Part shown: one piece after another, positions 2,617-59,670 of the stretch
How the letters are laid out: each line of letters begins with the position of its first letter
Numbering within the stretch: the stretch's first letter is position 1
Program-made: the position numbers and the translations under genes
From: a bacterium
GTDB lineage: Bacteria > Sysuimicrobiota > Sysuimicrobiia > Sysuimicrobiales > Segetimicrobiaceae
Length of the DNA stretch: 64,000 bases
Direction of reading: 5' to 3'
Assembly: GCA_035691305.1 (NCBI GenBank)
Contig: DASSJF010000013.1
Span: forward strand, 1-64,000
The notes under the pieces: model-generated
Seen by the model: only the letters and a program-made list of their open reading frames with translations
The model's database searches: none
What the model was told of the DNA's origin: nothing

Positions 2617-3483
2617 CTACCGCTCTTCGGCGAAGGTCCGCGTCACGAAGACTTCGCAGCCGTCCTCTGCGGCGAGCGCTTCGCCGAGGGTCCGCGCGTC
2701 CGACTCCTTCGCCGCGAGCGCAAACAGCACGGGGCCGGTGCCGGACATGGATACGCCCAGCGGGTGCTGGGACGCCATCCGCTCGCGCAGCGTCCGAACG
2801 ACCGGGTGATGGTTCTCGACGACCTCCGCGAAAACGTTGCAGAGCAGCCGCCCCACCTCAGCCGGATCCTCCGCGTCGAGCGCACGCACGACCGCGCGGG
2901 TATCGGGCCGGCGCCGCGGCATTTCGTGGTTGACCTCGCCGTACGCCCATTCGGTGGAAACCTGCAGCGGTGGACGGACCAGCACAACCCAGGTCGTCGG
3001 CAGCGGCCGGAGGAGCCTGATCCGCTCGCCGCGCCCTGTCGCGAGGGCCGCGCCGCCGGCGAGGAAGAACGGCACGTCCGAGCCGATCTGCGAGGCGAGG
3101 TCCATGAGCTGCCGCTCGCCGAGGCGGAGTTTCCACATCTGCGCAAGGCCGAGCAACGTCACCGCGGCGTCGCTCGATCCGCCGCCGAGTCCGGACGCGA
3201 TCGGAATGCACTTCGTCAGCTCGACTTCGACGCCGCGCGGCACGTGGAACGTCTCTTTCAACAGCGCCGCCGCCTTGTGGACGATGTTGCGAGTATCCGC
3301 CGGCACGTCCGGGCTCTCGCAGCGCACGGCGATCCCTTCGCCGTTTTCGCGCAGCGTAATTGAATCGTGCAGTTCCACTGTGTGCAGCACAGTCTCGATG
3401 TCGTGATATCCGTCCGGCCGGTCGCCGAGGACGTCGAGCGTCAGGTTGATCTTGGCGTACGCGTTGAGGTGCAGTTCCTTCAC
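2617..3483 (-). CDS. ispE: 4-diphosphocytidyl-2-C-methyl-D-erythritol kinase
   Basis: Catalyses the ATP-dependent 2-phosphorylation of CDP-methylerythritol in the non-mevalonate isoprenoid pathway; cytosolic. The 288-residue protein opens with the typical AYAKINLTLDVLGDRPDGYH segment, carries the GHMP kinase ATP loop PIASGLGGGSSDAA at 94-107, and has the C-terminal GTGPVLFAL-type motif. It is the first gene of the ispE-nucleotidyltransferase-purR-GNAT run. A purine-rich AAGGAGG lies just upstream of the ATG at 3483, supporting this start. The long leader upstream (3484-3759) contains two strong hairpins. Confidence 0.97.
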   Translation of the reverse strand: MKELHLNAYAKINLTLDVLGDRPDGYHDIETVLHTVELHDSITLRENGEGIAVRCESPDVPADTRNIVHKAAALLKETFHVPRGVEVELTKCIPIASGLGGGSSDAAVTLLGLAQMWKLRLGERQLMDLASQIGSDVPFFLAGGAALATGRGERIRLLRPLPTTWVVLVRPPLQVSTEWAYGEVNHEMPRRRPDTRAVVRALDAEDPAEVGRLLCNVFAEVVENHHPVVRTLRERMASQHPLGVSMSGTGPVLFALAAKESDARTLGEALAAEDGCEVFVTRTFAEER

Positions 3484-18622: not shown

Positions 18623-18734
18623 CTCTTATCTACCGGAATTGGATCTCCGCGGGATTTAGCACCACGCCAGGCGGGAAAACCTGGTAGGCTGCCGGGTGTC
18701 ATCGGGCCCGTCCCTCGACCACTCTGGATAAGAG
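18623..18734 (-). promoter_or_regulatory. SAM-I (S-box) riboswitch aptamer
   Basis: Read on the minus strand: the P1 arms CTCTTATC (18727-18734) and GATAAGAG (18623-18630) pair perfectly. Between them are the S-box hallmarks: CCAGAGTGG and GAGGGA after P1, GGCCCGATGACACCCGGCA, the CCAGGT / CCTGGC arm, and GTGCTAAATCC. It controls the ThrC-like and MoaD-like genes, normally switching them off when SAM is plentiful. Confidence 0.95.
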
Positions 18735-57646: not shown

Positions 57647-59032
57647 CTAGTCGGAGGAAATCGCCTCGCGTTCCATCGCGCGGTCGAGCGCCGCGTCCAA
57701 CGTCTCCGTCATGCGGATGACGCCGCATGCGTCCGGCGACGTCAGGCGGCGCAGCGCGGCGAACACCTCGGTGTGCAGGCGGTACGCGTCGGCGGACTTG
57801 CCCAACCGGGACAGCACGCGCGCGGCGGCGTACCCGGCGACGATGCCCTCCATCCTCATGCCGGTCTTCGTGCAGTGCTGGTAGGCGTTGGTCAGATACC
57901 GCAGTCCCTTCAGCGTCCGCCGCTCGGCCACCGACACCACGCCGAGCACGATGCTCGCACGCGCCACCTCGTCGGCCATGCCCCGCGCATGGCTGAGTCC
58001 CACCGCCTGCTCCGCCGCGACGCGCGCATCCGCCACGTCGCCGAGCGCCAGGTAGCACCGGCCGAGCTCCGTGAGCGCCCGGCACTCGCCCATCACGTCC
58101 GACAGCCGCCGCGCCATCGTCACGGCCGGCCGCAGGTGCTCCAGCGCCTCGGCCGGCCGCCCCGATTCGATCAACACCATCGCCAGGTTGTTGCGGACTC
58201 GGAAGGTTGTCTCCAGATCCTCGAACCGCTCCGCACCCCGCAGCGCCTCGCGGTACTCCACGAGGGACTTGGCATAATCGCCGGTCCGGTAGTGGACGAC
58301 GCCGACGTTCATGCGCACGTCCGGCACCCGGTGCGGCGCGTGAATCTCGAAGAGCGTGATCGCTTCCGTCGCGGCGGCGAGGGATTCGTCGTACCGGCCC
58401 AGCCGAAAGAACATCGTGCTCAAGTAGCCGAGCACCTCGCCGTGGAGCACGGGCTCCGGCTTCGGCAGCGACGGAGTGAGCGACAGCATCTCTTCGTACA
58501 ACCGCACCGCTTCGATCAGCCGGCCTCCGCGGTGCTCGATCAGACCCAGGTTGCGGAGCGCCCGGCACTCCATCAGGCGGTCGCGTGTGCGCCGCGCGTG
58601 ATCGAGCGATTCGCGCAGAAGCGGCTCGGCGTCTCGAGGGCGGAACTGTCCGACCAGCGCTTCGCCGATGCCGAGCCTGGCGCTCGCGACGAGCTGCGGC
58701 ATGCCGGCCCCGGCGGCGAATTCCAGCAGCTGTTCAAACACCCCGCGGGCCGCGTCATAGCGACGCTGGCTCAGCGCCTGCCGCCCGCGGTTGTCGAGGT
58801 CGGCGAGCACGCGCGCGGTCCCCTTCCGGTCGAGGGCGCGGAGCAGCGTCGCGACCGGACGGTCGAGCCGCTCCGCCAGATGCGTGAGCGTTTCGAGGGA
58901 CGGCCGGGCGCCGTCCCGCTCCAACAAACTGACAAACGCCTTCGTCAACACCGGAGTCGCAACCTCAGACTGACTGAGGCCGCGCGCGAGCCGAGCTTGT
59001 TTCAATAGTTGCCCGAAGGTCAACTGCGGCAT
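57647..59032 (-). CDS. HTH-TPR regulator (RRNPP-like)
   Basis: A 461-residue regulator: N-terminal XRE helix-turn-helix (about 5-60: FGQLLKQARLARGLSQSEVA, FVSLLERDGARPSLETL) and a long TPR array (about 85-440) with repeats such as DVADARVAAEQAVGLSHARG, YAKSLVEYREAL and RYDESLAAATEAITLF. This architecture is the one used by PlcR, NprR and ComR, which bind secreted signal peptides through their TPRs. A small secreted peptide gene lies 172 bases upstream on the same strand, and near-identical palindromes precede both genes. ATG 59032 follows GGGGGG. Its function as a peptide receptor is inferred. Confidence 0.85.
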   Translation of the reverse strand: MPQLTFGQLLKQARLARGLSQSEVATPVLTKAFVSLLERDGARPSLETLTHLAERLDRPVATLLRALDRKGTARVLADLDNRGRQALSQRRYDAARGVFEQLLEFAAGAGMPQLVASARLGIGEALVGQFRPRDAEPLLRESLDHARRTRDRLMECRALRNLGLIEHRGGRLIEAVRLYEEMLSLTPSLPKPEPVLHGEVLGYLSTMFFRLGRYDESLAAATEAITLFEIHAPHRVPDVRMNVGVVHYRTGDYAKSLVEYREALRGAERFEDLETTFRVRNNLAMVLIESGRPAEALEHLRPAVTMARRLSDVMGECRALTELGRCYLALGDVADARVAAEQAVGLSHARGMADEVARASIVLGVVSVAERRTLKGLRYLTNAYQHCTKTGMRMEGIVAGYAAARVLSRLGKSADAYRLHTEVFAALRRLTSPDACGVIRMTETLDAALDRAMEREAISSD

Positions 59033-59037
59033 TGCAC

Positions 59038-59149
59038 CGTCCCCCCGGGACGTCAACGCGACCTTAACTATTGGGCGGGGGGACCCCCTACTCCTCCAGT
59101 AGGTGCCGTCTCTGATAGGTGACCGTCGTGATAGGTGGCCGTCCGGCCG
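59038..59149. promoter_or_regulatory. Cluster of palindromes and direct repeats before the HTH-TPR gene
   Basis: Four elements lie in the HTH-TPR leader: CGTCCC-CCC-GGGACG (59038-59052), GGGGG-A-CCCCC (59078-59088), CCTACT-CCTCC-AGTAGG (59087-59103), and TGGCCGTCCGGCCG (59136-59149). The last is nearly identical to the reverse complement of the site at 59366-59379. A 15-bp direct repeat lies at 59113-59143. Confidence 0.55.
59113..59143 (+). repeat. 15-bp tandem direct repeat in HTH-TPR promoter
   Basis: TGATAGGTGACCGTC (59113-59127) and TGATAGGTGGCCGTC (59129-59143) differ at one base and are 16 bases apart, one and a half helical turns. A regulator-binding repeat is plausible. Confidence 0.6.
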
Positions 59150-59204
59150 GCTGAACCTACCGCTAACGTACCGAATGTCGGTGTTTGTATCCGTTCTGCG
59201 TGAA

Positions 59205-59342
59205 CTACCCGCCGCTCCCGTTGTCGCCGTCCGCCGCGAGCTGAGTGGGATTATACGCATGCCCTGTCTGCAATCCCGCGCCGCTGACGCCCCCGAGCAC
59301 CAACAGTGTCACGACCGCCACCATTGCAAGGATTTTCCGCAT
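59205..59342 (-). CDS. 45-residue secreted pre-pro-peptide
   Basis: A tiny gene immediately upstream of the HTH-TPR regulator. The product starts MRKILAMVAVVTLLVLGGVSG, a signal peptide with a cleavage-like site GHA-Y, and ends in a hydrophilic tail of about 16 residues rich in Gly, Asn and Asp. GGGGGTG upstream is the only ribosome-binding-like sequence. Size, signal and position match peptide pheromone precursors of RRNPP systems (Phr, PapR, NprX). No database support could be checked. Confidence 0.65.
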   Translation of the reverse strand: MRKILAMVAVVTLLVLGGVSGAGLQTGHAYNPTQLAADGDNGSGG

Positions 59343-59670
59343 TCTGCCACACCCCCATTGAGTTTTGGCCGGACGGCCACATCGATGCAGAGAAACGAAT
59401 TGTGAAGGAGGAATGTCGCGCCGACATATTTGGAAAGTACCTTGGGCGCATGCTCTGCCAAGTTGAGCATTGCTTGCTAAAATACCTACCGAACGACTGT
59501 ACGATTGACTCGCTTCGCCGCCGATCCTCGCCGCCCGCCCAAGGTGGGAGGAGCGGCGCCGGCCCGCCGCCCGAATCCCGACGCGAGGAATTCCGGTCCC
59601 GCGCCTGTAAACGAAACGGGCAGCTTCACACATGTGCCGGGTGCGCGGACGAACAGTCCGGGAGGTAACC
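59343..59670. other. 328-base divergent intergenic region
   Basis: Lies between the divergent peptide gene and TrmA-family gene. AT content is higher around 59395-59515. It holds the palindrome at 59366-59379 and several weak -10-like elements (TAAAAT near 59477 on plus), but no clear promoter, RNA or further gene. GGGAGG just before 59671 serves the downstream gene. Confidence 0.5.
59366..59379. promoter_or_regulatory. Palindrome upstream of the peptide gene
   Basis: TGGCCG-GA-CGGCCA, 24 bases upstream of the peptide start. Its reverse complement matches 59136-59149 in the HTH-TPR promoter at 13 of 14 bases, suggesting one protein may bind both. Confidence 0.5.

Follow-up and report, generated by a model that had tools for sequence, protein, structure and literature searches.

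A probable RRNPPA-like peptide and receptor pair in the phylum Sysuimicrobiota

Introduction

Does a bacterium far outside the Bacillota sense a secreted peptide by means of a cytoplasmic transcription factor? This question is raised by a small locus of an uncultured soil bacterium belonging to the phylum Sysuimicrobiota, also designated CSP1-3 (PMC11604079). The locus lies in a stretch of 64,000 nucleotides (assembly GCA_035691305.1, contig DASSJF010000013.1, positions 1 to 64,000), referred to here as the window.

The known RRNPPA systems belong to Bacillota and their mobile elements. Among 13,513 complete genomes, all but one of the host genera fall within the Bacilli (PMC9765709), and RRNPP_detector has been applied to Firmicutes and viruses (PMC10075063). 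In the accessible parts of the open-licence literature on non-Firmicutes, Actinobacteria and diderms, no RRNPP system outside Bacillota was found, and quorum sensing is not mentioned in PMC11604079. By gene content, Sysuimicrobiota appears to be a diderm phylum, since a gene-content search found LpxC in 38 of 43 genomes (mostly metagenome-assembled), and the genome of the window (G000) also carries an Omp85 gene, approximately 3 kb from that of LpxC (contig C59, 30391-35343). As the original prediction for this locus had stated, the host is not a typical Firmicute.

The propeptide and receptor genes

The original prediction, made from the DNA letters, described a peptide-signalling pair comprising a 461-residue HTH-TPR protein and, 172 nt upstream, a 45-residue ORF with a signal-peptide-like N terminus. 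Both ORFs were found as described; of the span given for them, only the right end (59379) was misplaced, lying 37 nt past the peptide ATG. The propeptide ORF (45 aa plus stop, 59205..59342, minus strand) encodes MRKILAMVAVVTLLVLGGVSGAGLQTGHAYNPTQLAADGDNGSGG and is preceded by the ribosome-binding-like sequence GGGGGTG. The gap of 172 nt separates it from the receptor gene, which follows on the same strand. Its residues 1-22 (59277..59342, minus strand) comprise a basic start, a hydrophobic core, and small residues at the presumed cut, and satisfy the hydrophobicity and charge requirements for a predicted Sec signal; this call follows our own rule, based on hydrophobicity, charge, and a Shine-Dalgarno sequence.

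Two other genomes of the genus retain the pair, with receptors 69% and 60% identical to that of the window and, in both cases, a peptide of 44-45 aa located 131-134 nt upstream of the receptor. In one of them (G002), as in the window, nothing but the pair separates the two flanking genes, which are the same in both. The propeptide evolves as protein-coding DNA, to judge from its substitutions: the comparison of the window with G002 gives a pN/pS of 0.43 and 13, 4, and 21 differences at the three codon positions, and the ORF is kept with coding bias in both orthologous loci (L008 and L009). Among related propeptides, 21 pairwise comparisons give a pN/pS from 0.20 to 0.76, apart from one near-identical pair with too few changes. 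The retention of the peptide frame in related genomes and the coding bias of its substitutions, on which the original prediction depended, were thus both confirmed.

The receptor gene (57647..59032, minus strand) starts with ATG and encodes 461 aa plus stop. An XRE-type HTH occupies approximately residues 6-66 (58835..59017, minus strand; Pfam HTH_3/HTH_31 and the helices of the model), followed by nine TPRs at approximately residues 69-428 (57749..58828, minus strand; Pfam TPR_12 and the model), which presumably form a peptide groove. The AlphaFold2 model shows the HTH, the nine TPRs, and a C-terminal cap, with a mean pLDDT of 93.8. Its best fold matches in the PDB are eukaryotic LGN/Pins proteins, binders of extended peptides. 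The leading bacterial matches are the Rap protein of pLS20, RapF, RapJ with its peptide, NprR, RapH, and PlcR (6t46, 3ulq, 4gyo, 5dbk, and 3u3w at E about 1e-7), all ranking below LGN/Pins. In the model, therefore, the TPR resemblance to Rap and NprR is not specific, as LGN/Pins scores better.

In sequence comparisons, the curated models of RRNPPA subfamilies did not match the receptor, and only generic TPR or HTH families were found at or near the cut-off. Generic families were all that PHROGs returned, and generic TPR proteins all that a viral structure library returned. Against solved structures, sequence comparison retrieved only generic TPRs and the HTH of PlcR; the latter is the sole RRNPPA member matched by sequence, via this domain (E 0.006).

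Recurrence of the pair in the phylum

The flanks of receptor homologs collected from the phylum were scanned with one rule, namely a short ORF with a basic and then hydrophobic N terminus and a Shine-Dalgarno-like stretch. Of the 76 receptor-family genes of the phylum that have enough upstream sequence, 42 are preceded by such an ORF on their own strand, at a distance of up to 320 nt. The same rule recovered 1 of 72 downstream and 1 among 44 unrelated long ORFs taken from these contigs, a control set whose gene calls are crude (Fisher p 9e-15 for upstream versus downstream and 4e-10 versus control genes). Counted by locus, pairs are present in 32 of 43 phylum genomes, with a peptide-receptor distance of 16-277 nt. 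A relaxed scan added two propeptides (L029, of 139 aa, and L166), which brings the set to 44. Two upstream ORFs (L010 and L011) were rejected as peptides because they encode cupredoxin-like proteins; the receptors next to them are 40-42% identical to that of the window.

About half of the family receptors, including three paralogues in the genome of the window, lack an adjacent peptide. Peptide presence is clustered on the receptor tree (10 changes versus 25 in shuffles), on which peptide-less paralogue clades can be recognized. Receptors without a peptide are also common among RRNPPA systems, and PMC9765709 describes them as possible eavesdroppers. The family was found in 35 of 43 phylum genomes versus 1 of about 343 others (match at 1e-45). 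The sole outside match (G368) has no upstream peptide, and the same is true of a relative labelled as Chloroflexi (L049). At the threshold used in this sequence search, the receptor family is nearly confined to Sysuimicrobiota. A peptide-bearing receptor was also seen on a contig deposited as Candidatus Nitrosymbiomonas (L048, G037:C107); the contig appears to belong to a genome placed in the order of the window, and the deposited name seems wrong.

A synteny search for a constant neighbor of the pairs found none, and the contexts are many. In one clade, a patatin-like phospholipase gene begins 27-68 nt after the receptor (L024 and L034, 2821-3921 in gene orientation; L021, 2865-4268), followed in L024 and L034 by an amidase-like gene (Pfam Amidase_2 in L024). 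The patatin-like gene is a possible regulated target. In another locus (L165), the ORF at 2622-3101, right after a peptide-bearing receptor, resembles a SagB-type dehydrogenase by eye and has no Pfam match.

Repeated units and the predicted signal

The polar tails of the propeptides offer an indication of the mature signal. Exact repeats, scored from a length of 6 aa, occur in 19 of the 44 propeptides, with units of 7-30 residues; 0.03 would be expected from shuffled tails. Between repeat copies, 89 of 236 codons differ, all silently, although this silence follows from choosing exact repeats. For instance, the serines of AGDSLPGGS in L036 have TCG codons in one repeat copy but AGC codons in the second; the repeats are therefore not the product of recent DNA duplication alone. 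A signal-peptidase-like AxA often precedes the first copy. In 10 of the 19 repeat-bearing propeptides, the last unit is flush with the C terminus, and these units include AGDSLPGGS, AGDVGPGDS, VAGDTGPGQNG, AGDTWPGGG, GDDPPDSD, GQDGPGQ, and APELPGEN. This position suggests a C-terminal signal of 7-9 residues. RRNPPA systems offer precedents for a mature signal at the C terminus as well as for tandem copies (PMC10075063, PMC11343458).

By analogy with the tandem C-terminal units of its homologs, the mature signal of the window is predicted to be residues 38-45, DGDNGSGG, or the shorter GDNGSGG (59208..59231, minus strand; 562-678 Da). The predicted signals as a whole are hydrophilic and small (562-817 Da), near porin-passing size.

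Conservation of the TPR groove

Groove-facing positions of helix A were assigned by the canonical TPR register. In peptide-bearing receptors, these positions are more conserved than the others (p 0.004), whereas in peptide-less receptors they are not (p 0.89). Conservation of the HTH is equal in both groups (0.515 versus 0.519). Compared directly, the groove is more conserved in peptide-bearing receptors (p 4e-6; p 8e-4 without divergent clades), and the gain is concentrated at TPR4-7 (p 3e-8; p 3e-4 without divergent peptide-less clades); shared ancestry is not fully controlled in these p values. The original prediction had expected a peptide groove in the TPR domain. The model does contain a superhelical groove, with TPR4-7 positions conserved specifically in peptide-bearing receptors, which partly bears out this expectation.

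One groove position deserves separate mention. Asn227 of RapF, located in TPR4 of seven, is a strictly conserved RNPP asparagine that contacts the peptide backbone (PMC3601957). Its candidate counterpart here is Asn282, at position 6 of helix A in TPR6 (codon 58187..58189, minus strand), because the nine-TPR form has two extra N-terminal TPRs (PMC5131891); this assignment comes from repeat count, not superposition. At this position, 21 of the 41 peptide-bearing receptors have N and 18 have S, while N was found in 3 of 37 others. On this register, Asn282 may match the helix position of the RNPP anchor asparagine.

The peptide and receptor genes share a reading frame at two loci, which allows a natural read-through chain to be folded with its tail tethered. 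In the AlphaFold2 model of such a chain (L050), the tail and linker have a pLDDT of about 30, which means no confident docking; the model is weak evidence either way for peptide binding.

Comparison with known RRNPPA systems

RRNPPA systems are recognized by a receptor of 250-500 aa with TPRs and a propeptide of 10-100 aa at a distance of -60 to 400 bp (PMC10075063). The pair of the window, with a TPR receptor of 461 aa that also carries an HTH and a propeptide of 45 aa at 172 nt, falls within these limits. Its phylum lies outside the known host range, a matter of range and not of mechanism.

The closest likeness is to individual features of several systems. NprR-NprX of the Bacillus cereus group shares an HTH plus nine TPRs in a receptor of 430-460 aa, a short propeptide adjoining the receptor, and, as predicted for the present pair, its export and a C-terminal pheromone. 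Its peptide contacts, from TPR2 to TPR7 (PMC4970707), overlap the groove conserved here at TPR4-7. However, NprX lies downstream of its receptor (PMC9765709), and the present pair differs in phylum, diderm envelope, and Gly/Asp-rich signals. No specific sequence similarity between the receptor and NprR was detected, and no evidence was found in the window receptor for a Spo0F-type phosphatase role. Rap-Phr systems resemble the pair in the TPR fold (RapF, RapJ, and the Rap of pLS20) and in their propeptides, which are exported by Sec, as predicted here, and in some cases hold several pheromone copies in tandem (PMC11343458); Rap proteins, however, lack a DNA-binding HTH, their phr genes lie downstream, and they are found in Bacillota and their phages and plasmids. 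PlcR is, like the present receptor, an HTH plus TPR transcription factor, and it is matched by fold and through its HTH by sequence, but it has five TPRs, its PapR gene is downstream, and it belongs to Bacillus. Nine-TPR receptors are also found in AloR and related systems of Paenibacillaceae and in AimR-AimP (arbitrium), and many pairs are encoded in some Paenibacillus (PMC7425212). The DPG motif in the peptides of AimR and subfamily 08 (PMC12700828) is loosely similar to the GDDPGG/PGG found here. The TPRs of AloR and AimR are degenerate, both belong to Bacillota and their phages, and they are likened to the window family by these features and not by homology.

The original prediction contrasted the upstream location of the peptide with that of PapR and Phr genes; among RRNPPA systems, however, this arrangement alone is nothing out of the ordinary. 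The unusual features here are the phylum, the envelope of the cell, and repeated signals rich in Gly and Asp. Architecture and adjacency agree with RRNPPA, the curated models remain unmatched, and the fold is unspecific. The pair is most likely a lineage-specific RRNPPA-like switch that works as these systems do and may or may not share their descent.

Proposed mechanism and alternative explanations

Taken in this way, the pair is likely to be a switch formed by a secreted peptide and a cytoplasmic receptor, working as RRNPPA systems do. We infer its export, processing, import, peptide binding, direction of regulation, and targets along the following lines. Sec would export the 45-residue propeptide; after cleavage by signal peptidase, further trimming would leave the last 7-8 residues, (D)GDNGSGG. 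This peptide would be re-imported, most likely via an Opp-type ABC importer, and would bind in the concave groove of TPR4-7, altering the DNA binding of the receptor. The latter would most probably act at least on its own locus, where a conserved box and dyads surround the peptide gene and would be its sites. Because the host is diderm, two routes can be envisaged: the signal may leave the cell as a porin-sized peptide (562-678 Da) or circulate through the periplasm. A Sec-out/Opp-in route is possible, as the genome of the window (3.6 Mb) encodes two type I signal peptidases and has 78 matches in the SBP_bac_5 oligopeptide-binding family, although such genes are not specific evidence for it. 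Seventy-eight matches represent a very large import repertoire for a genome of this size.

A broader reading, to which we assign even chances, is that of intercellular RRNPPA-type signaling in a diderm phylum, with multiple pairs per genome and porin-sized Gly/Asp-rich signals, whose receptors would be either a sister or outgroup to those of Bacillota or an independent invention from HTH-TPR regulators. The periplasmic route leads to a different interpretation, in which the peptide would only reach the periplasm, be processed, and be re-imported by the same cell. The pair would then be a cell-autonomous export or envelope sensor, reading secretion, proteolysis, or Opp activity and not population density. 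Such a sensor agrees with the diderm phylum (LpxC in 38 of 43 genomes, Omp85 in that of the window), and all other evidence on the pair fits it equally well; nonetheless, we consider it unlikely, given that the predicted signals, hydrophilic and with a mass of 562-817 Da, are small enough to be near porin-passing size, and that tandem repeats and diverse signal codes resemble those of intercellular pheromones (PMC9765709, PMC11343458).

The small ORF might instead encode a secreted product (an antimicrobial, a RiPP precursor, or an envelope peptide) that is merely regulated by the HTH-TPR protein. Repeated Gly-rich cores exist in some RiPP precursors, and some receptors adjoin enzyme genes, e.g., those for patatin-like proteins or an amidase. 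This is improbable, however, as no conserved modification, transport, or immunity gene was found beside the pairs, the pair of the window and G002 stands alone between its flanking genes, and groove conservation tracks peptide presence. More improbable still is a small hydrophobic toxin, or a leader peptide that acts on the downstream gene through attenuation: it would explain the hydrophobic N terminus and the hairpins between both genes, but neither the selection on the polar tail, whose repeats keep their amino acids while their codons differ, nor a receptor distance that varies from 16 to 277 nt. Lastly, a chance ORF without function, conceivable for a short frame in GC-rich DNA, can be practically dismissed in view of its conservation, coding bias, and recurrence (42/76 versus 1/72 and 1/44).

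The preferred reading, a secreted-peptide switch, would mean that cytoplasmic peptide sensing spans both monoderms and diderms, with the same architecture in most sequenced members of the phylum. As most of them carry pairs, the peptide signaling known from Gram-positive Bacillota probably exists far outside them too. What is new is the occurrence of many pairs, with Gly/Asp-rich signals, in a diderm phylum distinct from Bacillota, which raises the question of how a signal passes the outer membrane. In addition, the family could serve as an outgroup to root the RRNPPA tree, as called for in PMC12700828, and its many receptor/signal pairs, with units delimited by repeats, lend themselves to specificity tests with synthetic peptides.

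Control elements at the locus

Several conserved elements surround the peptide gene. A 28-nt box upstream of it, TCAATCGTACNNTYGTTYGGTAGGTATT (59481..59508, minus strand), is a candidate promoter or operator. It is conserved in the genus, with a single copy in each of three genomes (G000, G001, and G002), always upstream of the peptide gene; a regulon search with this box in these genomes retrieved the locus of the pair itself and no further targets. Closer to the gene, GGCCGTCCGGCC occurs just upstream of the peptide start (59367..59378, minus strand), as one arm of an inverted pair that is kept in L008 and mostly in L009. The second copy, located by sequence search, lies in the spacer between the two genes and points the other way (59137..59148, plus strand). 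These are the only two copies in the window, and they flank the peptide gene. Three other copies of CGGTAGGT in the window were dropped, since each falls within a long coding frame, in two cases that of a nuo-like gene.

The intergenic region also contains a conserved hairpin or dyad, GGTAGGT...ACCTAYC (59130..59161, minus strand), with little covariation in the three sequences compared. A further inverted repeat, GTCCCCCCG...CGGGGGGAC, with inner GTYAA...TTGAC (59039..59084, minus strand), also conserved in three sequences, covers the ribosome-binding region of the receptor gene and, by pairing with it, might control receptor translation. The box, the GGCCGTCCGGCC pair, and the dyads are candidate operators or RNA elements on the basis of these three sequences. 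Elsewhere in the window, a SAM riboswitch (RF00162, 76 bits) is located at 18623-18734 on the minus strand.
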